From: Styela clava | Lineage: Eukaryota > Chordata > Ascidiacea > Stolidobranchia > Styelidae | DNA: 64,000 nucleotides | NCBI RefSeq assembly: GCF_964204865.1 | Contig: NC_135259.1 | Location: 6,892,974 to 6,956,973, forward strand | Direction of reading: 5' to 3' | In this document: piece after piece, positions 10,131 to 58,060 of the stretch | Layout: every line of letters starts with the position of its first letter | Position numbering within the stretch: position 1 is the first letter of the stretch | Notes under the pieces: model-generated | What the model saw: the letters and a program-made list of their open reading frames with translations, nothing else | Databases searched by the model: none | What the model was told of the DNA's origin: nothing | Made by a program: the position numbers and the translations under genes

Positions 10131-13100
10131 TTGTCGAAACCCCCTGATGTGATTTTATTGGTGTTTTCTGCTGCGCCGTCGACAGCCTTTGATGACAATC
10201 CACACGCTCAGGGCGCAGAAACCATTGTGTCCCAGGTAACGTAGTTTCATTTTATTAAGTGAACAATCTAAGGATTTCCCGTTTTTTTTTATATACATTG
10301 ATTTAGTAATTCACGTATTTTGGGATCATGTTATGTAAAATTTGATTTTCAACTAATATTCGAAATCACTATAGTTAGTCGTTATGCTTTCTTTATTGCA
10401 AAAATACTTTAGTGGGATTTAACTGAAGATCGCAGTTGGATACCAGGCTTCCTTCAATCAATTTTTTACGTAGGTTTTATGCCTGGGACTATCGTTTTTG
10501 GACAATTATCCGATCGCTATGGAAGAAAGAAAATTTCGGTTATAGGTGAGAAAATTTATTTGCGACTTCTGCGATTTTAAAGTAATTAAAAAGAGCATTT
10601 GAAATATATTTTCAGGATACATATTAGTTCTGATATTTCAAGTTATCACTGAATTTTGTCAAAATTGGCAACAATTTGCAGTATGTAGAGCTATATCAGG
10701 CTTCCTTGTTGGCGGTTTAAGTGTTGTGACAACTATACTTATACAAGAAACTACGGGATCGAAGCTTTGGGTCCTGAACGGTGAGTACAAATGACTCCAA
10801 TTCCATTTACTGGTACAACAGGAATTGCTTATATGACTTTCATATGATTTTAATCCAAAATGAATAAATAATAATTGCGAAAACCAATAAGCTCGACAAC
10901 AGCTATAGGACTGAATGAATCTATTTTCAGGTGCTCTCGGTGCAATAGGATTCACCGCAAATATGTTAGCGTTTCTATGGGTTGCCTATCTTTATCCTAG
11001 TTGGAGACAAATGTATTTTATTACAACGATACCTGGAATTCTTGGATTTGTTTTTTTATAGTAAGTGAAAAAATACGTTAGTGAATATATTTGAAGATAT
11101 AAATCGCATTTTCTCAATATTGATAAAATATGGCAAAGTCCGAGGGAAAGCGAATGGATCTCAAGCTTTCATATCGAGGATGTTTAATTTTTTGTATTAT
11201 TTAACGATGGTGAATTGGATATAGCATTGTGAAATATTTATATATCCCGTGCTAGTTCTGTCGAAATGCCAATATTTTCAATACTGCTAGTTCATACATT
11301 AGTAAAGTTTAAATGCATATTACATGAAATTGATGCAGAAATTTAGCTTAACACCTTTCAGCATTGTCCCAGAGTCGCCGCGTTGGCTGTTGTCTCGCGG
11401 TAAACCAGACAGCGCAGAAGAAGTGATGCAAAAACTATCAAGGTGGAATGGATCGCCCCACACAGGTATTTTATATTATATATATATATATATATGTGAT
11501 TATGAACAAATATTTTGGATGCCCGCAAATTTGAATATCACTCAAAGATATTTGCTTACGAAAAACAAAAAGTAAATCACATGTGTAATTGCTGATACGT
11601 AAATTCTCCTATAATATGATTCTAATATTTCAATAACGCTTGATAATTATTATTAATATATTAAGAATATGCTCTTCTGCCGGGGAACGCGAAAGAACGC
11701 CAAGATGAGGATCATCAAAATGAAAGTACGTATATATCAAACCCGGATTAAACTAGAGCTGCGTGCAGCTTTAACAGGCTTCCCGCGTAAAAAAGCTGAA
11801 GACGCGTTTTGCTCACTGGAGCGTGAAAGCGATCATGCAATTTATGATGGCGGACTTATTATCTGCATGTAATGTAAATTTCAAGTCTCTAAGTAGTGTC
11901 GTTCTCGAGAAGAAGATGGAAATATAAAATCCCATATTGCTCACTGGAGCGTATCGCCGAGGTCACTCATGCGTATCCTTGGCATATCGTATCCGGAACT
12001 TGTTCATTAATCATTGTTATGAATTTCAACCCAATTGCATGTATCAATTTTGAGAAATCGCAAAAAAACTGAAAACGCGTTTTGCTCACTGGAGCGTGAA
12101 AGCGTAGTCAGTCATGCATAAAAATTGCAATTTATGACGGGGGACTTATTATCTGCATGTGATGTAAATTTCAAGTCTCTGAGTAGTGTCGTTCTCGAGA
12201 AGAAGATGAAAATGTAAAATCCTATATTGCTCACTGGAGCGTATCGCCGAGGTCACTCATGCGTATCCTTGACATATCGTATCCGGAACATGTCCATTAA
12301 TCATTGTTATGAATTTCAACCCAATAGCATGTATCAATTTTGAGAAATCGCAAAAAAAATGAAAACGCATTTTGCTCACTGGAGCGTGAAAGCGTGGTCA
12401 GTCATATATAAAATTTGCATTTTATTGCTAGCTGAGAACTTCTGCACATTTGAGGTGAATTTCAAGTTTGTAGGATCAATTTGAAAAAAAAATAATAAAA
12501 ATAAATAATAACTAGAGCTGCGTGCAGCTTTAACAGGCTTCCCGCGTAAAAAAAACTGAAGACGCGTTTTGCTCACTGGAGCGTGAAAGCGTGGTCAGTC
12601 ATGCATAAAATTTGCAATTTATGATGGGGGACTTATTATCTGCATGTGATGTAAATTTCAAGTCTCTAAGTAGTGTTGTTCTCGGGAAGAAGATGAAAAT
12701 GTAAAATCCTATATTGCTCACTGGAGCGTATCACCGAGGTCACTCATGCGTATCCTTGACATATCGTATCCGGAACATGTCCATTAATCATTGTTATGAA
12801 TTTCAACCCAATACCATGTATCAATTTTGAGCAATCGCAAAAAAACTGAATACGCGTTTTGCTCACTGGAGCGTGAAAGCGTGGTCAGTCATGCATAAAA
12901 TTTGCATTTTATTGCTAGCTGAGAACTTCTGCACATTTGAGGTGAATTTCAAGTTTGTAGGACCAATTTGAAAAAAAAATAATAATAATAATAAATAATA
13001 ATAATAAAACACAGGAATACGATAGGTTCCCTGCTGACAAGCAGCGGGAAGCCTAATAAATAATAATAATAAAACACAGGAATACAATAGGTTCCCTGCT

Positions 13101-20900: not shown

Positions 20901-23662
20901 TCAAAATCTTAAGCTATGCCCGTAGGGCCTCACCCTCAAATATTGAATGAATCGCCAAAAGATTTTCAGTTTAAAAGATCCATATTTTGCAGGTCGCGGG
21001 GCTGGGAATCCATCGGTGCTCCAGTTGATTGAAAAGCAGCAAAGAAAAAGAAATATGTAGCAATGTCCACGTGATAGAACCTAAATTGCCTTTTAACTCC
21101 AGCTAAGAACCACTCCCAAAACCTTAAAAAACATCACTCGATATTCAGTGTTTATTCACATTAGTAATTGAAATAATACTTTGTATTTCTATGGATTTTT
21201 GAGAAAAAAACTTGGGTACTCCAGAAATACGTGTACCAAGATTACGGACAACGGTTGTTATTATTTTGGCTGCAGTACTTTGCGTATACATTTGCTCAAA
21301 TTTTTTGAATACTTTCTCAAGTAGTGTTGTTACATCTTGACATTCAGTTACATTGTTTAATAGGTATTCGCTCATGAATGATTTGAAAATATTTTTCTTT
21401 TATATCAAGTGTCGGATGTTCAATGGTGTGATGATGGTAATAAATTTTAGCTGCTTGCATGTGTTGAGATAGCCTTTGTATAATCATTGACTCTTAAAAA
21501 AGTTATTTATAGATTGGTTTGATTAATTTCTTGAGCAGAGCCTTGTGTTTCTGGTTTGAATTATTAACAGAAATTGCTGCTCTACCTATGCATTCCAGAT
21601 TGTTGTCACATTCACAAAAGCTGCAGTGCGCAAATCACTGGCCCTTCGTTTCGTTCGATGCCGTTAAATTCTTTCTCATAATCATCACGAAAATTTTTTA
21701 CGTTTACTCGTTTTATCTCTTATGAAGTTGCAGATCTAAACTAAATTCAAAATTTAATTTACTGGTATATTCATTTATAAGGTTAAAAATAAGGACATAC
21801 GTCAAAATAAAGATGTTTCTTAGAACTAAGGACAAAAACATTTCCTAAAACAAAGACCTTCAAAATAAGGACAAATTCTAAAAATAAGGACGTTGTGGCA
21901 GCCCTGATTATAGGTCAAGTGGAGAAAAAACTTCTGTGAAAGCTACAATACTTGAGATGGAGTGAGACCAAAATTCTGTGCTACTAAGCGTTTTTTTTTT
22001 TATATAAAGTGCAAAGCATTCATTTTCGTCACCACTTTACCTACATCTGACTGACATTTTTTGCAATGCATCGCATTTTTGATGCCTTGCTTTCTTTCGA
22101 CAAGGAAGTTGTCACATCATCCTGGTCATTTGCAAGACAGACTGTGTCTTCATTTTCACAATTATTTGTTCATTTTTATCGAATTTCTTCGTCCTTCAGC
22201 GAATATTTCGATCAGTCATCAATGAACAGGGCTAGTTTTCGAGCTGTGATGCAGGAGCGTCGTCGTCGTTAAGCATCTAGTCTGAACAAAACCAACCGTG
22301 ACGCCCGCCACTTGGAGGTGCAACATCGCCTTTGTTTGTTTATTACACGGCGAGCGGAGTTGGACATCTAATATATATTTACGGTCATAGTCAAGTTCAT
22401 TTTTTCCATCCAGTAAATAATATACGAAATAGACAAAAAATAAAATTAAACACACATTTTACTGGGGAAGGGAAGCCGTGGGAAACCAAGAATGGTTATT
22501 GAGCAGCGACACCGAAGGTTCAATATCTAATTAAATTTTTAATGATGGAAATTAAGTTTTTAGAATATTGTTGTTAGAGGTAAATATGGCTTTGGCAGCT
22601 AACCCACCAACAGCATCCATTAGATATAGAGGTTACATGATACAACCATAAATGTTACATGGAGACATCTCTAAGTGAACCCACCAGATAACTTATGGCG
22701 ATTCCCCGATTGGACAGACATCCAAAGTTCATAGTTGCTGAAGTATGTAAAGTAAGTATTAGTTGCTGTGGTAACTTTGCTATTCAATTCGATCCAGTGG
22801 TGCAGTACTGGCCGGGCATTGAAAGAAATGTGATGAATAAATGAAGAAAACAAGAGAGCAACGCTCAAATATCTGGACACGTGGACTAAAGCGAAGCAGG
22901 GTTTACCTTTGACGTTACCGGTACCGTACCCTCAAAAAGTTCCGGGTTTTCAGTCGCAAGAACTTTCACAGTCAGCCGTCACGCTTGGCGGATTAAAAAC
23001 CGTGTTCCCATAATTAAAAATTAATACAGCGCAATTTTGGATGAAATATTAGATCTCATAGACAGACAAACAGACAAATACCTATCAACATACTTACAGA
23101 TTAAAATCGATAAGTAATGATATGAAAATTCAGAAAAATTAGTGAAACAGTGATATAACAATTACATAATATATCAATTACCACACGTAGCCTATGCAAT
23201 ATTACTAGGTCAGCAGGATGGTGCAATAACCTTTTATATTATTTTTTCAGATGACGGTATGAATTTGTCGGGGTCGAACCACTACCCTCCCCCCCCCCCC
23301 CCTTTGAATTTTTTTGAAAACTGAATAAGTCGCTGATAACGCATGCAAATGCCTAATATCGCGGATTGTTTTCATCAGCGTGTTATTTATGGCCGTAAAC
23401 GCATTTACATTGGTGTTTATTCTCTCTAAATCACAAATTTGGGCAACGATAACAATGATAATTATTTTATTTTTATACTTGCACGGAATTGTGAATTCGG
23501 TGAGAGTTATTAAACGTTCATCGGCGGCGAGTTTCGGCGGCGGCGACAAATTAAGGAGTAAATCCGCGATCTAAATTTTTTGATTTTAAAGTGGAAATAT
23601 AAAAAATTGAAAATAAAATCGTAAACATTATAAGTTTTGTTGAGTCCCGCGACAGTCTAGGC
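20901..23662. other. intergenic, no supported gene
   Basis: Several short frames occur (for example 22066-22272, basic C-terminus), but none has splice support, recognisable motifs or composition unlike its surroundings. A poly-C run lies at about 23288-23302. Confidence 0.4.
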
Positions 23663-23770
23663 CAGGGTGGTCCAAACCCAGGCCCGCGGGCCACATGTGG
23701 CCCACCGCTCCGTTATCTGTGGCCCGCGCCGCATTTGCGCGGGAGTAAACGAAAAGTTGCATTTGGTGTT
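23663..23770. mobile_element. solo hAT-type end
   Basis: cagggtggtccaaacccagg followed by cccgcgggccacatgtggcc is the terminus type of hAT elements and matches the first 15 bases of the element at 26,271. No partner end was found downstream, so the element is truncated or its other end is too diverged to see. Confidence 0.6.
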
Positions 23771-25170: not shown

Positions 25171-25838
25171 GTGATATGGCCCATTTTCTCAGTACAAAAT
25201 AATTGGCTAAGTGCATTACGGTTTTCAACTGAATTTTACTTTAGAATTGACGTCCGTCCATTGTTCAACACTAATATATTCTTCTGGCAATTATCAAGAG
25301 TCCAAACACAGAGAATCTTCACGTTATTACTGTGAGTGTACTGCTTCGAGTATCCATATTATGTTCAGTGATATTCAATCAGGCAAACAACGCCATTTTG
25401 GTTTTGTACGTCGGAGATCACCGAGATACGTCGAGTCACTACAAGTGCAATATTTCCGGTGGTACTGTTTTCTTTTTTGGCCAAAACTAAAAATAATAAA
25501 AACAGATTTAGACAAAATTCCGGTATATGCATGAGTATAAAATGTATGCAATAATCGCGACTCTAATCGCTATTGCATGGCTTCTTCCGTATAGGCCAAT
25601 TCGGTTGCCATATGACAAATTGGTTTCGATTTTTAGGGCCTGCACAATGCAATATATATATGTATTCCCAAAGATTTATGCGAAAACTTGTTCCGTTAAT
25701 AATATCTCGTGTATATTGCAAATACATTCTAAGAATAATCAATCAAAACTAAAGCAAACTGTCCATGAAGATATTGATCATGATATCATTCACCTTTATG
25801 GTCATTCCGTCACGTCCGCGATTAACTATGACAATCAC

Positions 25839-27414
25839 CAGCGCCGGATTAACCATTAAACAATATAGGCACGTGCATAGGACACCAAGCAAAAAGGGGC
25901 ACCACAGAAATTTAGAGCTGAATTTGATATAGTTTATCGGTGTTTATCAAAATATTAAGTGTTCACCAGACGACTAAAACTTCAAAATGTTCGCTTATTT
26001 TTCTTCGTCAAGTATCATATCAACCTTATTTATTATAAATAAACATTGAAACTTATTTATTGAACACAGAATGGGCCTATGAGTCGTTTTCTTAAATTGT
26101 TGTTGTTTTTTCCTCCTAGTATTCTCCTTGTTGCTGCATTTTTGTTTTGAAAAAAATCTTTTCTCTTCAACAATTGGACCAATGAACTATTTCCATTATG
26201 TTGCGGGTCCACGATCGCATTTCAACGATCTACTGGTCAGCGAAGTCGGGAGTGTTTTGATAAGGTAGACCAGGGTGGTCCAAACCCTGTCAAGCTGATA
26301 CATTCCGTGCGACCCACAGAATAATTTTAGCGTATATTTGTATCTAATAGCGGAATGTTTATGTGTTTTTTAGCTATTTCAACTGGGGTTGGGATCTCAA
26401 GATTCAAAACTTTTTTTCTAACGCTTTGTGCCTTTATTTTAGTAAAAACACTTCTCTGTTTTCAAGCGTGGGCTATGTGACAGTAGTGACGAAATGCAGA
26501 GCCGACTTAACGCCGCGCAATCCGTTTTTTTTTAGCTAGGTCCGGAAATACCAACTAACAACGTTGTTATTTGACATGGCACTAAGCTTGCTCACGCTGC
26601 AAGTTTTTAAATTACTCAAATATAACAATTCGTAATAAAATGAGTGTCACAAGAAAAGTAACCTAAGGAAAATACGGCGGAAACGTAGCTATTTCCTTGT
26701 CCATCACACAGTGTCTGGTTTGATTTCAAGCAACATCTGTCACGAAAGAATATAATTTGAAGCGACATCAAACGGAAATGATAGATGCGGAAAATACAAC
26801 GGTAATTCTCGGGAATTAATTTTAAAATAACTGAAGGCTTTATATATCTTCTTTTTAAAAAAAACGCCACCTATACAACATAATAATAGTCTGATTAGAA
26901 CGTTAAACTCTCGTTGTTTATTAAATTTAAACTAAGTAAACTCGCGATATTTCGATCACTTTTGGGTTTTCTTCGTCTTGCGGCTCGCGAGACCTCCTTA
27001 AAAGTTTTTGCCGTCCTTTAACCTAGCAACCTTGAACCACCCTGATGTAGACTACTAGATACCGGTAAAATTTCAAACTACAGTTGGGACTTGTATCCTT
27101 CAGTATTTATTTCGATTCACGTTGAGACTGGAGGCGTGAATCTTTATTGTCACACTTCCTCAGGATTAGAGCTCAGCCGATATTGCGTGTTTGCCGACAT
27201 ATCATATCGGCAGTAAACGACGGCAGTATATATATATATCGGCTATACATAGCAGTTAAAAAACCTAAAAATGTTCGTAAAAGTTGTTTTATTTACTGTT
27301 GGTTGTGATTATTTATACACTTATGTGGTTTATTGTTTTTATAATTAAATTACACTTAGGGGGGCACCTAAGTCTTCAGTGCTTAGGGCACCAAAGGGGC
27401 ATAACCCGCCCCTG
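25839..27414. mobile_element. non-autonomous hAT-like element inside the hydrolase relic
   Basis: Ends cagcgccggattaacc and, on the other side, the complement of caggggcgggttatgcc. It is flanked by perfect 8-bp target-site duplications acaatcac at 25831-25838 and 27415-27422, the length typical of hAT insertion. No transposase frame is present. Subterminal blocks share ggggcacc and agggcacca. It contains the complete smaller element at 26,271-27,044. Confidence 0.92.
26271..27044. mobile_element. 774-bp hAT-like element nested in the previous one
   Basis: Inverted ends cagggtggtccaaaccctg and the complement of cagggtggttcaaggtt. Flanking 8-mers are aggtagac (26263-26270) and atgtagac (27045-27052), identical at 7 of 8 positions. 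Internal pieces recur as relics at 36,430-36,840 and 47,200-47,350. Confidence 0.87.
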
Positions 27415-28001
27415 ACAATCACCCTGTATCCACTTTGCAACAAATATTGAGTAATCGATCTTACATACGAAGATTTACTTGTTGATGTCACTCCAGGTAG
27501 AATGAACACAGTTGGTCGCGTAAAATAGTCTGGAAATAAAATATTTTCTCCATTATCGCACCAATCAAGATAAAATTGTCCTCTTTCCGAGTCTTACACA
27601 ATCTCTCTCCGGTACTCAAATGCCGTTAGACCGTTAGACAAGGAAGCTTAATCTCCCTATGCCACGCTTCCTAAAACTAATTACTTTAGCGGATCAATCA
27701 AGAGGTGTCACAGCCTCCCAGGTCAGTCGTCGAAAGAAGTCGGATGATGCGTCACTTTCCGGTTATCAGAAAGCTTCCCTGTAAATCCGCGCGAAGTTGC
27801 TCCTCAACATGTATGAAAACACTCATTACAATTCCCTTACTGTTATTGAATGCAAACAATATTTTTACAAATGAAGGAACAGCGAGATTTCTTTCATACA
27901 CTTGCAAATATATCGTGTTAGTTACGCACAGCCATTTATATATAAATACACGGTTGGAGCTTCAAAAAAATCTAAGCAACCAAAAATTGTACAACTAAAC
28001 A

Positions 28002-30308
28002 CTATTTTGTGTGGGTGATGTACATATGGGACTGAGAATTATTTACCATTGCAAATAAATATTCTGTCATTATCTGTTCAAAGTAGGTTTTTGAATATGG
28101 ATTGAATCCTTGGAGGTGACACACGTGTCCTCCTCCGCGAGTCATTACAAGCGCAACGTAATCAGTTCTGCACACTTCTTTCTTCGGTAAACCTGAAAAA
28201 GCACATATATATGTATATTAGTTACAATACGTTACATTAGCTATAGACATTATTGTGATACAGTCTAATTTAATGGTTGTAGGTTTAGTGGTAATAGCAA
28301 CAACGGCGATAATATTGTGCAGTGCACTGCACAGGCATTTTAAAACACAATCTACTTAGTGTAATATTGTGCACAACACAGGGTAGACGCGGTTAATGTG
28401 TAGGGTTACCATATTTTTGTGACTTCAAAACGACAACGACCCCTTAGCTGTGATTTTGCAACTTTACATTTTCCGATTTTACTACATGATCCTACATTTG
28501 TAGCTATCCCGACTGTCTTCATTGACTCATATTCGTAAAATACCAACAATTATTCAAACATTATTTGAAGACATTATTTTGAAAACTTTGGCACACTTCC
28601 TCATTTGAGTTGTGCACCTTATATAATTCAACTGTTTTTATCACAAATGTAGGAATGCATAAAATATCCAAATGTTGCATTGCACATAGCCATATTTTCC
28701 CATATGCCACACTTTTGAAATAAATCACTACACACAAACAACTGTTGTACTGTAACTATTCCAATTTGAGGCTGACAAATTACTACATCAAAATCTTACC
28801 GCGTTCTGGTGAATACATGTCATCATTTGATCCGACACACAGCAAGGGTATTTTAATTGCTTTTAATTTCGTTTCGTTCAATAAACAATCTTGATAATAT
28901 TCTTCTGCATTGCGGTAGCCAAACAAGGGAGCGGTGAAATGTTTATCAAATTCGCGCAAGTCAGTCGCTTGAATTATTTTTTTATGGTCGACGATATCCT
29001 GGAAAACTTTGCAATGTTTTCGATAAATCCTCTTTCGTTCCCATGCAACATATTGATTGAATATGATTCTGTTCTTCCATAATTCCGTTTCTTTTGCGGA
29101 CAATGGTGCGTTGAATGGACAAGAGAAAAGCATGGCTGCTTCTAGACCATACTTTTCCGAGTTTTGACTGAGATAAATTCCTAGCAATATAGCACCCATT
29201 GAAATACCGACGGCAAAAAGTTGGGATTTTGGATAATGCTGTCGAAAATGTTGAATTGCATGATGAATATCATTCGTTTTTGTTGCGCAATATGTTTCCG
29301 GAGTCTGAAAATATTACAATTTCTTTAGTGATAGAATCAATGCTTGTGATGAAAACGAATTTCGACCAAGCAATCGCAATTTCAAAGATATTCCGGGTTA
29401 TTGATTCGCTTATATTGGAAACTCAATTCTGTTCTGGAATGGCGATTTTATTCATGCTAAACACTGATTGACGTAGTTGCGGGGGAATGGGATAACCGAA
29501 TGTTGAATTATGGTTAGTTTCACTGGAATGTGAAGCTTGTCGGTGAGTTCAACCCTTTTATATTTGAAATATCAGTAACCTTCAATGGTACCAATACAAC
29601 ATAGTTTTAACATGGTATCCACCCCTTTATGATATCACTATAAAGGATAAACGCTGTCAGGGGGGTTCGGGAGAAAGTTCTTCTTTGGCGGACATTAAGA
29701 CTCGAGTATCGGGGCAGCACGGATTGTGCCATCCCTGATATTTATACATAATAGTAATATCGTACCTTTAGCTGCATTCCAACCAGTCCACGATATACGA
29801 TCACCATTACTCTATAGCCGTCCTCAGTCAATCTATTAACTGTAGATTTCACGTACGAAACATTACTACATGAAGTTAGGCCAGGAAGAACAAAAACAGT
29901 TGGCCTAATTGTACTATCCGGAAATCTTTCATTGTTGTCATTGTCAATCCAGTCTAGATAAAATTGCCCCCCATTTGGTTCGGTGATTACCTCCCTCCGA
30001 TAATTTAGTTTTGAAAAAGGTCTGAGGCAAGACATCAGCATAATTTGGCATCTGGAACCAGGGCACCAAAATAACGGCATGTAACGTCGTTTGAGAATGG
30101 GAATCTCATTTTTGATTATAATGTCAAGAGTTGTTCCTTGCTTGCAAAATACCAAAGGGAATTTTCCATAATTTGAAACGTAAGAATGAATGTACCATAC
30201 GATGACAAAACAAATCGTCGCCAAATTTATCAAAGCTATAAAAAAGCTGGTATGTTCCCGAAAAGCCATTTTCCAGCTTACCACTCCAAACAAACTGAAC
30301 TCACGCAA
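28002..30308 (-). CDS. ABHD1/ABHD3-like alpha/beta hydrolase, copy A
   Basis: Membrane-anchored serine hydrolase of the AB-hydrolase 4 family; known relatives act as phospholipases or esterases. Exons 30308-29766, 29304-28800 and 28192-28002 give 412 residues, the usual size. An N-terminal hydrophobic segment (FFIALINLATICFVIVWYI) anchors the protein. Family motifs follow: LKRRYMPLFW, GGQFYLDWIDND, RPTVFVLPGLTS, and the nucleophile elbow GISMGA (serine). The acid residue lies in LCVGSNDDMYSPERG and the histidine in RGGGHVCHLQG. All three catalytic residues are present. Intron phases (0 and 1) equal those of copy B. An alternative start, MAFREH, lies 13 codons downstream and may be the real one. 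It is the middle copy of a three-copy tandem array. No clear AATAAA is seen just after the stop. Confidence 0.93.
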
Positions 30309-31051
30309 CAGGCGACAGGATGCAAAATACTGGCCTTGCTTCTACAACATTAACATTCTTTATTTGTGACCCGCAATGAGGCACGCCTGATTTGGTGTAA
30401 ATATATTAGTGTTAATTGGTTACTAATTGGACTGAAAAGTAGCATTTGAAACTTTGCGCTGAGTATACTCAAATACCGCTTACTCTCAGTAAAACAAACA
30501 TTATATTTTGACTTTTTTCAATCACAAATACAGCGTTGTCATTGGAGAGATTAGTTCGGAATCAGAGATCTGTGCTGCAGAGTTAGGTATCTTGTGAGAT
30601 ATTTCACTCTGCGACTCATTCTCAATTCGAACTCGATAAAATTTTGACCGCAGCTGGTGGCTCTCCTTGCCAAGTGAATAAAAACTAATTTTAGCCTCAT
30701 TGTGCTTCGACTGAAAATTTGCTGCGTTTCGGAATGGCAAAACTAATCTAACATCAAAACTCAGACTTCATTTTATTGTTTTAAATTGTTAGGACGTTCT
30801 GCATTAAAACAAGTTTTCATTGCTGATATAGGAGTCGTAATGATTTCACAATACCCAGATCTGTTTTATTTATATGCTGTCGATGAAAAAATGCAAATTC
30901 ATTCCGGTTCGAAATACAATAAATGTTCCGGACTTCCTAAATCAACGGCCGCGTTTAATATTGTGAGCGCATATGAAATTTTCGAACTGAATAAATCACG
31001 ATATATTTTATTTACGCAATCTTTCAAATTTTGTGCATATGGTAGAATATT

Positions 31052-31233
31052 GGGCGCTCCAGAAGTGTGTGTAATTTTTCGCCTATTGCCTATTTTTCAT
31101 CAAGTTATAGGCAGGGGGTATATTCACTTGGCTAACACAGGCAATCCCCGAACTCGTAATAGGACTAAAATAAGGAAAATCGGAATAAAATTATGCCCTA
31201 ACCCCAACCTGGTACACACACTACGGGAGTACC
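31052..31233. mobile_element. foldback MITE, long-spacer subtype
   Basis: Begins gggcgctccagaagtgtgtg, carries the shared core ccccgaactcgtaatagg, and ends ctggtacacacactacggga. It lies between the two intact hydrolase genes and is the same subtype as 33,078-33,286 and 45,632-45,813. Confidence 0.8.
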
Positions 31234-32424
31234 GATTATTGTATTAGTTTTTGTGCTTAACCAATGACAGTATCAACGTTTAATAATATTGCGTTTATTA
31301 ATCGCCAATCTGATTTTCAAATAAAAATGTCAAATCAACATTTAATCTACATTCTAATAATCCCTTTAACTGATAACGCCCACCTTTGTTTACTTTCAAA
31401 ATTAATGTCGAGTTTCAATTTGTATGAAATTGTTTTCTTCGTATACAAAATCTCAGAAATACTGCAAAAGATTAGGAAATAAAGCATTTTACACACACGG
31501 CAGAAGAAGCAAAAAGTCCAAAAATGAAGGCTATCTTACATGCTCAAACTAGAGATGCATTGATATTATATCATGTTCTGATAGATTAGCAGATAAAAGT
31601 TTTCGGGTACTTGCGTTTATTTGAAAATGCAAAGCAACAAATAATTTATTAATCGATAACAATATTAAAAACCTGATTATAGATCTGAAGAACTCTGAAA
31701 ATTTCAACTCCCTCGAAAAATTTTAATTTGTTTCATTATTACGATTCCACATGACCTTTAAAACAGCAAAATATCCGATAGCGTTTTACCATACATATCA
31801 AGTGGAAACATGTAATTGGCGTGAGGTGTTTACATAATTAAAGTACACTAAATGTATTGTTCTAAATGAAGAATAATAAATACCAAAAACATAGGTGAAA
31901 TGATTGTGCAAAATACGCAACATGTTTTTTTTTTTAAATCTAAGTGCATTGTGTATAAAAAAAAGTTGCATTGTTTTCCAAAGGCTATGTGTAGTATTAT
32001 ATTCAAAAACATTTATTATCTATGATAAACATATAATACAGTATATGATTGCTGTCAAATGTATATACATAAAGAGTTCAAAGCAGTATATTACTTCGAA
32101 TAAATCGTCTGAAAACTACAACCAAACCATCTACAATACCAATTAGTAAAGAAGATATGAGTAGTCAACCCATGAGTAGGAATAAGGCTGGGTATTTAGT
32201 CCCAATGACCATATAAATGGCTTACTTAATAGAAGGCTGGTCTGTAATATTGGCAGCAGGTTTGAATATTATGCTGAACCGCAGAATATTCTCTGCAACG
32301 TCTTCTACGAGTATATTCAGTTTTGCTAGGCCAGATTTGTCCATTTATGTACAGCGGAGACGTAGCCATTTCAATCACTTTAAGTGGTTTGAATCTATAT
32401 TTCGATGACATCTTACTATTTATT
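31234..32424. other. intergenic between hydrolase genes
   Basis: AT-rich with no supported exon. Upstream, at 30,786-31,247, an open frame of 153 codons runs into the MITE; its first two thirds match nothing I recognise. Confidence 0.4.
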
Positions 32425-35005
32425 CTATGACTTGTCTTCATTATTCATCATAGCATCGAAAAATTCAACCATAATTTGTTCAAAGTACGTTTCTGCAAAT
32501 GGATTTAAACCTTGAAGATGGCTCACGTGACCTCCACCGTATGTCATCACAAGTGCAACATTATCAGTTTTGCATACTTCGTCCTTAGGCAAACCTTAAA
32601 GGAATATAAAATGCAAAATTTAAATTAAGCAGAATTATATAATAACAGAATAGGTTAGTGCTGTACCAAATGGATAATTTGGTAATTAATTTTAAAAATT
32701 AAATTATACATTCAATCCTCATCCTTGATATACGAAACTGTCATTAGCAAAAGCAATCTCTATTTATCTTCTTGTTATTTTTCTTATCTCATTATTATTC
32801 TTACTCATTTTTATTTGAGAAACTCATATGTTAGTATACCTTGACAAGTTGACACAAAACCAATACTGAGGATATACTAAAAGTTTAGATAGGGACTAAT
32901 ATAATTCAGATCAATTTGATGTTACGTGTCTCAACAATATTTGGTCAGATTTCACCATAACCTGAATAGCTAGTTATCGAGAACCAAAATAGACCACAAT
33001 CATTTTGTGTTAATGAATCCTTGTCTTTTTGATTTCCCATTATGAGTTAAACCTTCTTTTAATCATGTACCAACTTTGGTACTCGCGTAGTGTGTGTACC
33101 GGGTAGACCATAATTTTGTTCCAATTTTCTGTATTTTAGTTCTATTACGAGTTCGGGGACTGTCTGTTTTACCCAAGTGAATATAACCTCTGCCCATAGG
33201 TTTCAGTCCATTTACACAACTTGATGTAAAGTAGGCGAACAAAATTAGTTACCTCCATATTGATACACACACTTCTGGAGCGCCCCAACTTCTGCTACTC
33301 TCAAGGATAACGATTGTATTGTATTTAAGAAGAAAGTTTTTTTATGCATGAACATCAACCGTGGCCAGTTCGCGTTAACGCTTGTTGGGCTCACGAATGC
33401 GAGACTAAATCATTTGGGAATATAAAGAATGTCTTACCGTGTTCTGGGGAAAACATATCGTCGTTCGATCCTACGCATAATAAAGGTACTTTAACTGATT
33501 TCAGTTTCCTTTCACATAAAATACAGTCGGCGTAGTATTCTTCCGCGCTCGTATATCCAAACAATGGAGCTGTAAAATGATGATCAAACTCGCGCATATG
33601 CCTAGCGTTCATGATTTTTTCGTGATCAACCAAGTTTTCAAAGACTTGGCTATTTCTTCGATAAATCCTTTTTTGTTCTCTGGCAACATGCTCGTTAATC
33701 AAAACCCTATTTGTCCATATTTCAACTTCTTCTGCACACACAGGCGCGTTGAATGGACAAGAAAAAAACAAGGCGGCATCTAATCCACATCGATCACCTT
33801 TTCGGCTTAAATGCTTTCCTAACATAAGGGTTCCTAAAGAGCAGCCCAAGGCAAAAAGTTTCGCCTCCGGAAAGGTCAGATGAAATCTTTGAATTGCTAT
33901 TTCCATATCATACGTGTGTGTTGCACAGTAGGTAGTCGGTGTCTGCATAAAGTTTACAATGTTAGATAATTATAGGATGAAAAGTTATAGCTTGTAAAAC
34001 ATGGGGATTAACTACGTGCAGATGATACCGTTACAATATTTCCATATTGATAAAAATGTTGTGGTTACATACATCCATAATCGATACATTTATAGATATG
34101 TGAAAAATTACTCTTCTGGTTAGGCTAAGACTGCTAAAATGTAGCATATGACGTAGGCCAAGAAAACACATATTAAAAACGTAATATTACGAAGATCGAT
34201 CGATGTAAAATTTATAAACATATAGGCACACCTTTGTTTGCGATACATGCTCTGGCGAATTTTTTTTTTTCAATAGAAATTTCAAACGTCGGCAAATTTG
34301 CTTATTTTGCCTACACCTTATGTATACAGTATTCAATTGCTCGAACGTGGCGTACTTAAAAACTATGACAAAATCAACACAAGGTCTAAAATCAATTTAA
34401 TCCATATTTACCTTGACTTCCATTCCATCAAGTCCACGATTAACGATAACCATCACTCGATATCCATTTTGTACAAGTCTAAATACAATAGACCTTACAT
34501 ATGTCGATTTACTTGTTGATGTTACACCAGGCAAAATAAAAATAGTTGGCCTCGTCTTACTATTTGGGTAAATAACGTTGTTATGGTCATTGTCACGCCA
34601 GTCTAAATAGAACTGTCCTCCATTCGGCTCTTCCACGACTTCTCTGCGGTATTTGAAACCGGATAAACACGGTAAAAATGTCCTCAGAATAGTTTGACAT
34701 CTCGATTCGGCAAACCAATACAGCGGCATGTAACGTCTTTTGAGGGTAGGAATACGGTCCCGAATAATCGTGTCCAATTTTGTCCCTCGTTTGCAAAAAA
34801 TAGAGGGCAGTTTTCCATAATTTTTAATATAAAAATAGGCGTATAAACCAACTCCAACGTAGATAAAATTCACCATTTTGAAGTCCGATATGGCAGCATA
34901 CAGCATTTTCGTACTTCTTGGCATTGCGTACAACATTATTCCACAAACCATGATGGGTATGATCACCATACGGCGGTTTCCTCTATTACTTTCATCACAA
35001 GCCAT
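32425..35005 (-). CDS. ABHD1/ABHD3-like alpha/beta hydrolase, copy B
   Basis: Paralogue of copy A. Exons 35005-34412, 33942-33438 and 32594-32425 give 422 residues. The N-terminus is longer, with two hydrophobic stretches (MVIIPIMVCGIMLYAM and FIYVGVGLYAYFYI). Motifs: LKRRYMPLYW, GGQFYLDWRDND, RPTIFILPGVTS and VMVIVNRGLDGM. The nucleophile elbow is GCSLGT, where copy A and the usual family pattern have Met in place of Leu. The acid lies in LCVGSNDDMFSPEHG and the histidine in YGGGHVSHLQG. Exon 2 is 505 bp in both copies and intron phases match, so the pair arose by tandem duplication. AATAAA (32424-32419) begins directly after the TAG stop, implying a very short 3' UTR. The 33,078-33,286 MITE lies in intron 2. 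Confidence 0.94.
33078..33286. mobile_element. foldback MITE, long-spacer subtype (intronic)
   Basis: Begins ggtactcgcgtagtgtgtg, contains agttctattacgagttcggg (the family core on the opposite strand), and ends cacttctggagcgcccc. It lies in intron 2 of hydrolase copy B, so it is tolerated in a transcribed region. Confidence 0.82.
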
Positions 35006-36429: not shown

Positions 36430-36840
36430 TACTGCGGCCCGTAGAACAATTTCAGCGTGAACCAACTAAACCATATTTGAATTTATTGGCAGAACATTTT
36501 TGCCGTATTTTTAAACTATTTCGACTGCGAATAACCCTTTTCCCAATCCCGATGTAGCAAATGATGTTTGTAAAGCACGGAATTTCAATGTTATTCTATT
36601 AATGTCAAGACGGTGCCAACATGGGAATGACGTCCGGTGATCGGTACACGAAAAAGGAATTATCAGGTGCATTCAAGACCAAGCCGATGAGATAAGTCGT
36701 GCTTTTCATCTAAACTTCGTGCCTCAATCTCGCGCCAAGTAACTCCTCATTTGGAGAGGCGTTTGTACCTATATTTTAGTAGAAACACTCCTCTATTTTC
36801 AAGCGTTGGCCATGTGACATTACAAAACCAAACAAGAGAA
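36430..36840. mobile_element. relic of the 26.3-kb hAT-like element
   Basis: Shares gcggcccgtagaacaattt-type text and ttagtagaaacactcctcta plus attttcaagcgttggccatg with internal parts of the element at 26,271-27,044. Termini are not preserved. Confidence 0.6.
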
Positions 36841-36959: not shown

Positions 36960-37690
36960 TAATATTAAACGTAAATACAAATATAATGTGCACAACTGGA
37001 AGACACGCACGAAGAAAATGAATGCGTGATTGCAAAGTGAGTTGAAGGCGTATGATAACTATGGTAACCAGACGTAAAAGAGAAGATTCTAAAACTGAAA
37101 TCGTTGGAAGTTAAGCATGATGACTTAACTTTCTATGTTTAGAGTTTAATTGGAGTCACTATCTGTGACGTGATTTGTTGAAATAACGAAAATTTTTGCT
37201 ACTCCCGTAGTATGTGAACTAAGATGGCGGACATCGGAACGTAATATGTGTACCAGGTTAGGGTTAGGCCATAATTTCAGGTATAAATACTACGGGAGCC
37301 ACTTGGCCAGTCCCCGAACTCGTAATAGAACTAAAACAAAAAACATTGGAATAAAGTTATGGCCTGACCCTAACCTGGTACACATACTACTTTCCAGTGT
37401 CCGCCATCTTTGTTCACATACTTCGAGAGTACCAAACCGAGTGTGTTGAAAGTCACGTATGATGAACTAGTTTTCTATGTATGTTAAGAGTTTAATTTAG
37501 ACACGGGTAAAGTATGGCCTGCCGGCCAAATCCAGCTCGTAGGGTAATTCCATCTGTCTCGCCTGATGCTGCCACAGCAAAACTGAAATCAAATTTTGAT
37601 GTTTTAGCTAAAAATAGCTCAAGAAATTTGTTGAGATTGCGGTTAAATTTAGTTTTGGCAGACGGCATATTGTTTTCTACTTTTAAAATA
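36960..37690. repeat. ~700-bp dispersed repeat, copy 1
   Basis: Matches 44,440-45,050 along most of its length, for example agagaagattct before the inserted MITE and cctgatgctgccacagcaaa after it. Both copies carry a foldback MITE at the same place. The block gacacgggtaaagtatggcc resembles an hAT terminus, so the whole may be a transposon family. Confidence 0.8.
37199..37433. mobile_element. foldback MITE, ~80-bp inverted repeats
   Basis: Left arm actcccgtagtatgtgaact then aagatggcggac and ccaggttagggttaggccat; the right arm is its near-complement ending gttcacatacttcgagagta. The central core is ccccgaactcgtaatagaac. No coding capacity. Confidence 0.9.
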
Positions 37691-43680: not shown

Positions 43681-43820
43681 AATACTGCGGGTGTCACTTG
43701 GCTAGTCCCAGAATTCGTAATAGAACTAAATAGGAAAAATAAAATAATGCCCCAACCCTAACTTGGTACACACACTACGTTCCGGTGTCCGCCATCTTAG
43801 TTCACATACTACGGGATTAC
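43681..43820. mobile_element. foldback MITE, half copy
   Basis: Contains the core (agaattcgtaatagaactaa) and the right arm (ttggtacacacactacgttc, then ccgccatcttagttcacata) but lacks the left arm. Confidence 0.82.
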
Positions 43821-44439: not shown

Positions 44440-45050
44440 TGCACGCACATACAAATATAATATGCACAACTGGAAGAAAATGAATGCGTGCTTGCAAATT
44501 GAGTTGAACGCGTATGGTACCTATGGTAACTAGGCGTGAAAGAGAAGATTCTGGAACTGAGGGTACTCCCGAAGTAAGTGAACCAAGGTGGCGGACACCG
44601 GAACGTAGTATGCGTACCAGGTTAGGGTTAGACATAATTCAGGTACAAATACTACGGAAGTCCCTTGGCTAGTCCCCGAACTCGTAATAGAACTAAACAA
44701 GGAAAATTAGGGTAAAGTTATGGCCTGACCCTAACCTGGTACACATACTACGTTTCGGTGTCCGCCATCTTGGTTCACATAAGAGAGTACCAAACTGAGT
44801 GTGTCGAAAGTCAAGTATGATGAATTAGATTTCTATGTATGTTAAGAGTTTAATTCAGACATGGGCAAAGTACGGTCCGCCGCCGAATCCAACCCATTGG
44901 GTAATTCAATCTTGCCCGCCTGATGCTGCCACAACAAAACTGAAATCAAATTTTGATGTTTTTATTTAAAAATAGCTCAAGGAATTTGTTGAGACTGCGG
45001 TTAAATTTAGTTTTGGCACGAAGCATATTGTTTTCTACCTTTGCTTTGTA
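44440..45050. repeat. ~700-bp dispersed repeat, copy 2
   Basis: Partner of 36,960-37,690. Shares agttgaacgcgtatggtacc-type text on the left and aactgaaatcaaattttgat on the right, with a MITE at the same internal position. Confidence 0.8.
44563..44790. mobile_element. foldback MITE inside the ~700-bp repeat
   Basis: Left arm gtactcccgaagtaagtgaa then ccaaggtggcggacac; right arm ccgccatcttggttcacata then agagagtac; core ccccgaactcgtaatagaac. Same insertion position as 37,199-37,433. Confidence 0.9.
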
Positions 45051-45631: not shown

Positions 45632-45813
45632 GGCGCTCAAGATGTGTGTGCACCAATATGGAGATAACACATTTTGTTCGCCCATTTTACATCAAGTTGT
45701 GTGAAGGGACTGAAACCTATGTATATTCCCTTGGCTAACACAGACAGTCTCCAAACTCGTAATAGAACTAAAATAGGGAAAATCGGAATAAATTATGAGT
45801 CTACGGGAGTACC
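45632..45813. mobile_element. foldback MITE, long-spacer subtype
   Basis: ggcgctcaagatgtgtgtgc, internal ttttacatcaagttgtgtga, core ccaaactcgtaatagaacta and end gagtctacgggagtacc. Matches the subtype at 33,078-33,286, which lies on the other strand. Confidence 0.78.
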
Positions 45814-46893
45814 CACAAAATGGCTAAAACGTAGTTAAAAGGTATTATTAATTAATTTATTTGAACGAATTTAATAAAAAAAATTCAAGTGATCTTTTAA
45901 TTTTTTTTGACGTTACGTACGTAAGAATCGTTTGCTAAGTTCTCGTTGTTGATGTTGTAGGGTTTGCGAGAAATCATTATTGCAAAAAAACGGTGTCGTG
46001 AGACAAAGACACTTTTGTTTGGAATTGGTTTAAAAGCATAATAATTTTTGAGTAACATTTGTTAAAACTTAGTAAATAGAATAAGAAAAATAGATATCGA
46101 TTGTTGGTAATTAATTTAGTAACTGGTAACTTTTTTCCTCCTTGTATTTTATTACGACGCTTATTTACGAAAAGGCCCTGCACAATTGGCCACACAGATC
46201 AAATAATAAGCAATGTTTCAAAAAAAAAAAGTTTTCCGAAATTTTAAAATAAGCTTGAATCACTTAAGATAGGTATCTTTACTCTTGCTCCAGATCCTTG
46301 CATTATATGCATATCGGATCCATCGGCACAAAAGCATAGAAGAAGGATAAGTAGTAAGTCTCGCAGAAACCCAATCATTAGCTTTACCAATTATAGTTCT
46401 AATTATAAAGTCGTATTTTAGCCACGAAGTGTACATTTAGATAGTTTTGTCAAATTCTTGTTTTGTTGTTGTCGACAAAAAAAATCTGTAAAGGAATTAT
46501 CAATTTCAAATTTTCAGTTCTTATGCATTTTAACTTAAATAAAATGGAACACTTTTTTTATTCTGTATTTCTTGTCCGGCGATCTCTTTAGCAAACTCGG
46601 TGTTTACAAACACCGGCATTGATTCGCGATCTTCATCTTCATATAAATAAGTCCTGCACTTTTTTTTAATATTCCCATTGTTATTACACTGTTTTGTTAT
46701 TCAATTTTAAGGTGAATCCTTTATTATCATGTATTGTTCTTTTCTGCGAACTCGGTAATCTGATGATCCGGTATCGATGCCATATATTTAAGCATTTCTT
46801 TTCTAAGAAAAATATTTTTATTGCTATTAAAGATATATCATTACAGAGCTTTATTTAATTTCTAATTTGTTTCGACAAACCTGAATCAGCAAA

Positions 46894-46944: not shown

Positions 46945-48266
46945 GTAAGTGCAAATCTTTCAGTTTTATAAATTTTTTTGACCATGATAAGATACTGAAA
47001 AAATGTAATTTTCCCACTTATTACGTTCGTTTGAGCTTGCTTTCCCTGTACGCTTCTATCGTTAAGGCTGGGAAGCTGGGCATTTTTGAATGCCTGTGAT
47101 TTTAGAATCGAATACATTTTTCGAATCAAATCGAATCTCGAATACTGAAAGATATTTGATTGCGTGTCCGGGAAATTTGCCGTAGGAAATCTCGCCGCAT
47201 AGGTAAAATCGCAGGAGCATTTTGCTGTAAAACAAGTATTTGTGATTAAAGGGAGTAAACTCGCGATGTTTTGATCACTTTTGGGTTTTCTCCGACTGCG
47301 CGAGACGTCCTCAAAAGTGAGGTATTTAAACTGTGCAAAATCCAAACTGCGAGCTCCGCATTGCACTAGCTAAATATTCATTTAGGATTGAACAGTAACA
47401 GAAATATAATTTTCATGCGTAGTGAGTAAGGAAAAAAGTGATCCAAAAGGAGGAATTTGTTGAAAAGCGTCCCGAGCCACTGGTTAGTGTATAGTTCTAG
47501 AATGCTTTAAAAACGAATCGTGCCGTCGTTTCGCTATATTCTGCGTAGGTCCAGTGGTGGACTCCTCGAAGTTGCAGAATGGCTAAAGTGACCTCTGGTC
47601 ATTCACGGCTTCAACCAAGCACATACATTAGTGATTATTAACTGACCAGCTATTACCATTCCCGACCAGGACTGGTAAAGCACACAAGAAACTGTGGTTT
47701 GCCATATGATTAAGTCGTCCTGTTGGTTTTCATCTCCAGTGGAATAATTATAAAAATCTTACATAATCGTAACATATATGAAGTCGGTTTAATTACTCTG
47801 CACATAATTATTATGATATCAATACACATACTACTTTTAAATAGGATTTAAACCATATGCCATGTCTATTATTTGAGTACGCGACGGCAATTCGTTTTCC
47901 TTCCATAATACAGTCCCCATCATTTCGCGTAAAAGCTTGTTTCTTTCGAGTGATTGAGTGATTGTGTTGATTTTGAAGGTGGTAGGAAATATAACAGTTG
48001 AATGACTTCGCGGCTGAGAACCAACATATGATATTTTTCTGAAATAAAATTTTAATGTTTACTTACTACTCATAAAAAGAATGGTCGGCGAGAGTTCTGT
48101 TGGCAATAAAAATTTCCTCCGGACGTTTGAAACATGAATGTACATTCATAGTCTGCGCACAGGATACAATATCATAAACAATACTGCAATTGCTGATTAA
48201 AACAGACATACCAGAGTATATTACATTTCAAATTCGCTAATTGAGACAAGGGATACATCTTTAAAT
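46945..48266. other. intergenic, repeat relics
   Basis: Holds gaatcgaatc-rich text (47,100-47,160, also at 41,320-41,430), a relic of the 26.3-kb hAT-like element (47,200-47,350, gatcacttttgggttttct), and a SINE-body piece (47,640-47,760). Confidence 0.5.
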
Positions 48267-48989: not shown

Positions 48990-51164
48990 ACTGATTACAT
49001 GTGTGTGCGAATTGCTTTAATCAACCTGAATTTGCTGCAAAAATTGCTGATAAGTTGTTTCACAATATTCTGCGAACAAGTCACTGGTAGATTCTAGTTA
49101 GAAATCCATTCACCTATTCTAAGAAGTATACTAGCGCCAAATTAGATGATAAGGAAGAGACGCTAGGCCAGGGGTGAGAAACATTTTTCGGTTTGCGTGT
49201 CAAAATCGGTTAAATTCATTAACAAAATTCTCCCGTGTGCAAAGCGAAATTTGTGAAAACATACTACTGTACCGACATTTTAGAAGTATATATATGGGAA
49301 GAGCCTTGAAGAAATGATGAAAATTCTTCCGAACAGTGAAAACTTAAGTCAGACAAGATTTGATTACTATTTGTTTGCTCTATCGACTACTCCTGCTGCT
49401 GCATTGCTGTTAAGAGGGCTTTTATAATTGTGTATATTTTATAATCTTCTAAATATATATCTACTACTAGTTTTCAGTCAGGCTACTGCTATTACGAGAT
49501 CTAATGAAGTTAATAACAGAGAACACGAGCAAGTTCATAAAATTATTATACTCTGGTTTTGCGCATTCTACAACTGATCTATTCTTTTTTTCTTAACGGT
49601 TTTATTGTTTATGTTATTGAAACAGATAATGCATAAAGATTAAAAAAAAGTCTTTCTCATTCACACCAAATCTTTAGGTACAGTATTTTTTGAATATTCT
49701 GACATCGCCAATTAAACGACGTTTTTATCTGATGGTCCTGACGTTGTAGAATTTGTAAGGGTAAAAAAGAAACGTACATGAGGAGAAAGAAACATGAGGT
49801 AGGCCAATAACACAGAAGTAATTAAAATTTAATACATTATCAATTTATATATATATATGCCAATAAGTTAGCAAGCAACCCTAATTATATGCGCTCTCAA
49901 ATTTTGTAAATCAGGCAGAAATGAAGAAAAAGGGTACCACAGACGAACTATATTACGTAAGAATTTAGCCAAATAAATATGACGTTGGTCTGAAGAAAAA
50001 TCGATGAAGGTCGAAAACTCACATATAATTGTTACGTCATGACATATTTTTTTGTAGCTTTGTGTCATAAAAGGACAAAAATAGTTTAATTAATTAACGT
50101 ATTGTCAAAAACGAAAATGAAGAAACGAACGCCGAGTTTCATCCGTCAATACCGGGATTTGAAACGTGCCAGGGGTTACCCGCGACTGCCCTAGGCTAGG
50201 TCATTTGTGAGGATCCTCCTTATCAATGACGTCAAAAGAATGGGCGAATCTCATATAACCTCATATTAAGCTTTTGCGGTTATGACAAATGTATCTGGCG
50301 TATTAATAACCTTTCAAGTTGCGTGAATCAGGATATTTTAGTTACAGGCCAGATACGTATGATATAATCACACGCATAGATTGGATAGTAAGTTGAATTT
50401 AATAAAATAACACTTGTAAGAAACTCAAGGCACCAGAAAACCCGACGTCCTAATATCCCATACCACAACCAGGTTTTGTCCGTGGGATATATTTTTCTGT
50501 TTCATCCCATGGAAATTCATGCTTGTCCCATCCCATGAGAATTAAGTTTCCCATGGACCGGCATGACGAAAAACTTCTTCGATGAAAAAAAGATCTGAAA
50601 ATAGCAAAAAATATATATATTAATTCTTTGTTTGGTTGTTGCTCAGATAAAATTGCATAGGCATAGGTTACAGTTCAGTTGAAAAGTTTCGAGAATTTGA
50701 TATAAAGGATTTCAAGGATTAAACGTTATATTCCAACAACATCGGATACGTTATTAAAAACATGTTAAATCTGAAATAACGATTCTAATTTCAAAAGAAA
50801 GAAAGTTTATTATATTTACCACCATCGCCTTTTTTTATTCAATTATCCCAGTGGCACGCAACCTCAACTCTTGCGTTAGGTATAATTCAGATTTGACGAT
50901 CTTTGAGATACATGATCTCGAATAACTTTATTATGGTTACCTGATTCTAAGATTTTGAAATACAGGCCTTATCGAGTACTTGCTTGACTGGAAATCAACT
51001 TGGTTAGCAATGGTAAATTGTTTGCGATTTTCAATCGTGTACACTGTACATGATCAAAACTATTAGACTTTCCCGGAAAAAAATACATTTTTAATAACGT
51101 ATAGGTAACGCGCAACATTTTCCGATAACAAGAAGTGGAAAGGGTGATGAACTCATCGTGTAAA
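48990..51164. other. intergenic
   Basis: A solo hAT-like end (caggggtgagaaacattttt) starts at 49169. No gene is supported. Confidence 0.4.
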
Positions 51165-56694: not shown

Positions 56695-58060
56695 ATGGCA
56701 GCTGAAAAATTGAAAGACGACGAATTGGTTGTTTTTCGAGAAGCGTTTGGAAAGTTTGATCCTGAGGAAAGTAATCATGTAGCCACTGAAAATATAGGAA
56801 ACGTTTTAAGGGCAGCAGGGCAAGCTCCGACCGAAGCCCAATTAGAGGAATATAAAAAGGTACATGCCATATATATATTGATCGTTGTATCGTTGAAATC
56901 ATCCCTAATTAAGTTGAGCTGCGATAAAAAGCAAAATAGACACAAAGCGGTTGTGCCAACATTTTTTTTTAATATCATATACCTTGGGAGAAGCCATAAA
57001 AAGCTTTTCTTCTTTTCTCGTAGCATATTTAATAGTTCTGCAATAAAGTGGTACGGTTGCTGGATTTACTTTCAAATAGCAATTTTACTTTGATGATAAA
57101 TTAATGCAATTGGTCTTGCATCTTTTCAAATGGAATTCAACCAGATTATTATACTCATAAAAATATGGACTCATATTCCAAATTTGACTATACGTGCTAG
57201 ATTTAGACTAGGATCTGAATCAAAATTTTGAATTGGGCCATACTGACTAATGTTATCAGCAGGTGTCAAATATTTCAACAGCAGTACCAAAATTATATTG
57301 TCGGTATATTTCTATACTAAAGACGGGTCAGAGCCAAACTTAATTTTGAATGGAATCGGGAGCTGGTGCTACCTTGGAATTTTCTTGTCAAAACGGCGAT
57401 TGAGATGAAGTTAAACATATGTTTGTAGATATGTTTCATTGTTTCACATTAAAAACCGATTGAAATTATCTCTGATTTCATTTCTTGCTGGAATAACAGC
57501 CACTGAGAGGAAAGGGCTTCTATTTTAAAAATATACGGAACCCTCTTGGTATCGCCATTGTCTACCCATATTTTATTACACTCTGGATAAAATAATGAGC
57601 TTTCGGTTTCAGGTCAAACATTTAATCAATACTGCAAATTGTTAACTGTTAATATTTCAGGAGTTGGACTCAAAGGACAGCGGAGAAGTTGAGTTTCAAG
57701 CTCTTGCGGACCTATTTGCTAAAATAATGAAATCGAGTCTTGATATGGATGATGAGTTGAACGCCGCGTTCAGGTAAATAGAGTTAAACACTTGAATATA
57801 ACAACAATTTTTTAGCGTATACCTATACCTATGAAAAAAAAAAACCAATTGTTCCCTTTCTCCGTCACCAACACAGGGTTCTGGATAAAGATTTAGACGG
57901 AGTAATCAGTGCATCGGAAATACGTGAATATCTCACAACACTCGGTGATACATTATCTCATGAAGAAATCGATGAATTTATCAAAGATGGAGATACAAGC
58001 GGAGAGGGAAAAATTAATTATACGGAATATTGTTTTGCTCTTTTAAATGACAATTTATGA
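56695..58060 (+). CDS. calmodulin-like EF-hand protein
   Basis: Exons 56695-56859, 57661-57773 and 57877-58060 give 153 residues, the length of a four-EF-hand calmodulin-like protein. Start MAAEKLKDDELVVFREAFGK is chosen because it aligns with the calmodulin N-terminus; an upstream in-frame ATG at 56566 adds an unlike leader. EF1 (FDPEESNHVATENI) and EF2 (DSKDSGEVEFQA) lack the position-12 glutamate and are unlikely to bind calcium normally. EF3 (DKDLDGVISASE) is canonical with acid/Ser ligands at 1, 3, 5, 9 and 12. EF4 (DTSGEGKINYTE) is near-canonical. Expected to be a cytoplasmic calcium-dependent regulatory or light-chain-like subunit. The degenerate N-lobe argues against ordinary calmodulin. 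Target unknown. Confidence 0.92.

Follow-up and report, generated by a model that had tools for sequence, protein, structure and literature searches.

A degenerate third copy in a tandem hydrolase array of Styela clava with nested hAT-like elements in exon 1

Duplicated pseudogenes with nested transposon insertions are a common kind of genomic relic, and the terminal inverted repeats of hAT transposons begin with the consensus CAG. For the elements considered here, the closest described counterparts are non-autonomous hAT elements and hAT MITEs, for example Mar of Drosophila willistoni, a hAT MITE for which 8-bp flanks and copies inside genes are reported. The same paper gives a Buster-type target consensus, nnnTAnnn (PMC3517528). 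For the gene in which they lie, the closest known systems are the bacterial YheT hydrolases, represented by the NCBIfam profile NF008218, and the ABHD3-type serine hydrolases, the subject of a review (PMC8389839).

The locus lies in a window of 64,000 nucleotides from contig NC_135259.1 of Styela clava (35.7% G+C, 0 N). This window is eukaryotic in character, with intron-bearing genes and the remains of transposons. We conclude with high confidence that a three-gene array has lost its downstream copy, which probably spent a long time under constraint and then decayed, and that a hAT-like element is inserted in exon 1 of this copy with a second one nested inside it.

Two intact-looking paralogues are located on the minus strand. 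The first, c1 (28002..30269), has coding exons at 30269-29766, 29304-28800, and 28192-28002, while those of the second, c2 (32425..35005), are at 35005-34412, 33942-33438, and 32594-32425. In both, exon 2 measures 505 bp, and their first exons end at equivalent positions in the alignment. Each matches the YheT profile NF008218 over almost its entire length (c1 at 6-324 and c2 at 4-324 of its 326 positions), with E-values of 1.1e-37 for c1 and 1.8e-37 for c2, but their bit scores of 130 and 129 are about half the curated cut-off of 267. The third copy differs from the known hydrolases in being dead. The Pfam model Hydrolase_4 matched c1 above its cut-off (E 4e-8) and c2 below it (24 vs 27 bits), and c2, the only copy queried against PDB sequences, had no match there at E 0.01. 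A GGGHV motif was read by eye in exon 3 of the intact copies. ABHD1/3, the name used in the initial annotation, is taken here as a provisional animal name for these hydrolases, which may also belong with ABHD2 or ABHD15.

The remains of exon 1 of the third copy are found on the minus strand in two pieces. The part upstream of the insertion (27415..27642) carries one ACAATCAC flank at 27415-27422 and a TAA at 27594-27596, and the last part, which runs to the splice donor (25794..25838), carries the other ACAATCAC flank at 25831-25838. In tblastn searches, the stretch 27629-27414 was found with exon 1 of c2 (E 3.5e-25, 63.0% identity) and of c1 (E 1.4e-20, 52.8%). The stretch 25874-25794 was matched weakly, by exon 1 of c2 only (E 0.026), and at the nucleotide level the last part shares 30/36 bases with c2 (blastn, E 6e-5). 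Joining the flanks, that is, removing 25839-27414 plus one 8-mer, yields a single frame of 84 codons with that one TAA, equivalent to the 3′ half of exon 1 in the neighbouring hydrolase genes. Over 83 codons, with the stop codon and gap columns left out, the third copy shares 55/83 residues with c2 and 45/83 with c1, while c1 and c2 share 54/83. The joined sequence matched a two-sequence profile of intact exon 1 with an E-value of 2.4e-34 (25795-27642); the 84-residue frame alone had no match in Pfam at E 0.01. The frame ends at the donor AAAG/GTGAATG (exon/intron), at a position equivalent to that of the other copies (AAAG/GTACGAT and CAAG/GTAAATA).

These results bear out what the initial annotation had read from the sequence, namely a third tandem paralogue whose exon 1 runs to the donor used by the intact copies and contains an in-frame TAA. 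With the insert excised and the strand translated, the check that it proposed, this exon aligns to exon 1 of both neighbours. The end that it gave for the feature, 27665, is slightly generous, as the profile match stops at 27642. The small indels that it listed are weakly supported: a 1-bp gap occurs where the profile match reaches its upstream limit, and the sole gap within the joined frame spans a single codon that c2 has and that c1 lacks as well. Near the upstream limit of the exon 1 homology there is also an 8-bp tandem duplication (27623-27639) that resembles the footprint of a hAT excision. We make no such claim for it, since it is one of 8 period-8 duplications in the window and a test copy reduced to a single unit scored no better (105.8 vs 106.1 bits).

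Unmentioned in the initial annotation is a relic of exon 3 on the minus strand (25425..25499), in the order and orientation expected of the gene, with an AG acceptor and the exon start at 25486. When both strands of the window were scanned for the start of exon 3 with a model built from c1 and c2, whose own exons score 128 each, 25499-25425 was the third-best place, with a score of 87 (z 7.0). The next-best place on either strand scored 70 (z 4.5). The alignment score of the relic was attained by 0/200 shuffles for either paralogue. In an ungapped register, the relic shows the AG acceptor, and its 18 open codons (LAKKENSTTGNIALVVTR) lie opposite those of both copies before it diverges at the expected site of the GGGHV motif.

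Between the two relics, a stretch of 307 bp (25487..25793, minus strand) occupies the position expected of exon 2 and both introns, with no exon 2 similarity above that of shuffles. Exon 2 was not detected in it by alignment against shuffles, a search whose lenient gap scoring entails low sensitivity (scores attained by 66/200 and 70/200 shuffles). By the same approach, remnants of introns in the interval from exon 1 to exon 3 were not significant (21, 37, 152, and 138 of 200 shuffles). The 5′ half of exon 1 was undetectable in 27643-28040 (123/200 and 95/200). Similarly, tblastn at E 1 found exon 2 only in c1 and c2, along with two weak unrelated matches (E 0.5-0.7). The third copy is consequently without the exon of the GxSxG nucleophile elbow, which can be read by eye in exon 2 of c1 and c2 as GISMG and GCSLG. 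Splicing of exon 1 to exon 3 would be out of the exon 3 frame and would meet a stop after 15 codons. Exon 2, like the 5′ half of exon 1, may have been deleted or may have been absent from the duplicate at the outset. Since the former is missing and the latter is undetectable, even an empty site would encode no hydrolase.

The outer element occupies 25839..27414, which amounts to 1,576 bp including the inner element and to 794 bp without the inner element and one inner flank. Its ACAATCAC flanks, at 25831-25838 and 27415-27422, are identical (8/8). It starts with CAG and ends with CTG, and its ends, CAGCGCCGGATTAACC and CAGGGGCGGGTTATGC, display an inverted match of 11/16. Within it, the inner element (26271..27044, 774 bp) has the ends CAGGGTGGTCCAAACC and CAGGGTGGTTCAAGGT, with an inverted match of 12/16, and is flanked by AGGTAGAC at 26263-26270 and ATGTAGAC at 27045-27052, which match at 7/8 positions. 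The initial annotation had described a 1,576-bp element in exon 1 between acaatcac 8-mers, and a 774-bp element nested in it with 8-bp flanks of its own. The outer flanks and the break in exon 1 homology are as it stated, the size of the nested element is right, and the inner flanks are present in imperfect form.

Two features associate these elements with hAT transposons: the 8-bp target site duplications (8/8 for the outer element, 7/8 for the inner one) and the short terminal inverted repeats, which begin with CAG at 4/4 ends and are imperfect in both elements. Based on these ends, on the flank length, and on general knowledge of hAT transposons, we infer that the elements are hAT-like and were probably inserted by a transposase. 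No ORF of at least 90 aa (stop to stop) occurs inside 25860-27414, indicating that both elements are probably non-autonomous, and no transposase was seen in the window. Most likely, a hAT-type transposase was supplied in trans for cut-and-paste insertion, making an 8-bp staggered cut in the target that would then be duplicated by repair. MITEs are short, non-coding, and present in many copies; the two elements are candidates, being short (774 and 794 bp) and having no long ORF. Elsewhere in the window only fragments of the inner family occur, and neither a further full-length copy of the two elements nor an empty allele was seen there. The elements resemble Mar in their 8-bp target duplications, their short imperfect terminal inverted repeats, and the absence of detected coding capacity. 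The inner flank AGGTAGAC fits the Buster consensus nnnTAnnn given there, while the outer flank ACAATCAC does not, with one site for each (PMC3517528). Six short strings (element ends, variants, and a dispersed repeat) had no literature match in the papers searched, and no paper on this locus was recognised among the matches listed.

Fragments related to the inner element were detected by nhmmer at 36741-36822 (E 5.6e-8) and 47246-47324 (E 7.7e-9). Another relative is found at 23658-23760, where the first 12 bases of the inner element (CAGGGTGGTCCAAACC) occur at 23663 and are followed by CAGGCCCGCGGGCCACATGTGGCCC, forming one end whose counterpart was not seen in the portion read. A match at 58731-58852 was considered as a relative of the outer element in a search of the window and, being weak (E 0.0024), was not accepted.

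Perfect flanks are weak evidence when taken alone, as they are not rare by chance. The window holds 2 perfect 8-bp flank pairs around CAG...CTG that are 300-3000 bp apart, and at least one such pair was present in 10/20 block-shuffled windows, or in 3/20 when at least 9/16 inverted-repeat matches were also demanded. With flanks of at least 7/8 and ends of at least 9/16, the outer and inner elements rank as the top 2 of the 4 CAG...CTG pairs in the window. The strong evidence for insertion is that the boundaries of the outer element coincide, to the base, with the points at which the exon homology breaks and resumes. Among the CAG...CTG pairs of the window is also one at 49169-50188 (flanks CGCTAGGC/CCCTAGGC, 7/8; ends 9/16), which is possibly a third hAT-like element or a product of chance.

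The substitutions that are unique to the dead copy fall on codon positions 1/2/3 in the proportion 15/7/21 (p = 0.03 against a uniform distribution), a marginal result given only 83 codons and three sequences with no root. This pattern is not different from that of c1 and c2 combined (17/12/36, p = 0.62). Between the dead copy and c2, dN was 0.26 and dS 3.0 (NG86), or 0.31 and 2.0 (YN00), with dS saturated; for the pairs of c1 with the dead copy and with c2, dS was incomputable. One stop was observed in the 84-codon frame, against about 6 expected from base composition. Together, the codon-position bias and this paucity of stops suggest, if marginally, that coding constraint probably acted on the third copy through much of its existence since duplication.

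We propose that three alpha/beta-hydrolase genes of the YheT/ABHD1-ABHD3 type, arrayed in tandem on the minus strand, lost their most downstream member, which was probably constrained for much of its post-duplication life before decaying. A non-autonomous hAT-like DNA transposon would have entered exon 1 of this copy, duplicating 8 bp of its target, and a second, different non-autonomous hAT-like element would later have entered this one in turn, likewise by cut and paste. The nesting places the outer element before the inner one, and the insertion is most simply placed after the duplication, since c1 and c2 are both without the insert. The initial annotation had held that the whole order of events is readable. 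This is true of the two elements, and does not extend to the insertion relative to the exon loss and the stop, an order that cannot be fixed from one sequence. For the same reason, and with exon 2 absent and the 5′ half undetectable, its claim that a transposon broke the gene could not be upheld: the transposon as the cause of gene death is unproven.

A quite plausible course of events, if somewhat short of probable, is that the elements entered neutral DNA, the copy by then being dead or incomplete, 5′-truncated and devoid of exon 2. The lost exon 2, the undetectable 5′ half of exon 1, the TAA, and the out-of-frame junction of exons 1 and 3 all favour it. However, so few stops relative to expectation argue that death is not ancient, and they are silent on order. 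Tentatively, we also consider the course implied by the initial annotation, in which the outer insertion killed a working gene, and the loss of exon 2, the loss of the 5′ part, and the TAA came afterwards. The long constraint suggested by the codon-position bias is consistent with it, as are the still identical outer flanks. Nevertheless, no feature sets the insertion before or after the deletions, 8-bp flanks are expected to stay identical over a wide range of ages, and the present copy would be dead even without the insert.

It is highly improbable that the outer element is a new, introner-like intron that is spliced out. On the coding strand, the flank copy is GTGATTGT, which offers a GT, and four GT/AG combinations near the junctions stay in frame with no further stop. 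However, the element ends in CTG on the coding strand and not in AG, which precludes precise removal; 4/4 combinations retain the TAA and alter residues; and exon 2 is missing regardless. We therefore rejected it. Just as improbable is an assembly artefact that joined unrelated pieces, for which no support was seen in this window without N, and against which the boundaries match the flank duplications to the base at two levels.

Set beside other duplicated pseudogenes with nested transposons, the lost copy is alike in combining a degenerate paralogue with stacked insertions that have relative dates, and no departing feature was found here. The locus is a clear but ordinary instance of genome decay, one more case of a familiar type, and we know of no open question on which it bears. 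It provides a clean case for genotyping and for relative dating by nested insertions, and it cautions against taking an insertion, because it is visible, as proof of how a gene died. There is a slim chance that, after a recent loss, an empty site or a more complete allele still segregates in the species. If so, a phospholipid-hydrolase-like gene would be polymorphic for presence or absence, and the chain of insertions would be datable.

The window displays several other features. A minisatellite with 67-bp units based on TTGGGCTAGACCC and with higher-order patterns spans 1-2998, and a tandem array with periods of 290 and 487 bp (94-95% matching) spans 11836-13001. A dispersed repeat occurs in both orientations at 31040-31245, 33078-33293, 37240-37390, 43706-43779, 44604-44752, and 45632-45817, with one of the six copies lying within intron 2 of c2. 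A longer repeat pair, 37200-37684 and 44564-45042, has 87% identity over 486 alignment columns. Rfam and tRNA scans found nothing in the window. Finally, an ORF at 57788-58060 encodes an EF-hand pair (Pfam EF-hand_7, E 4.2e-13).
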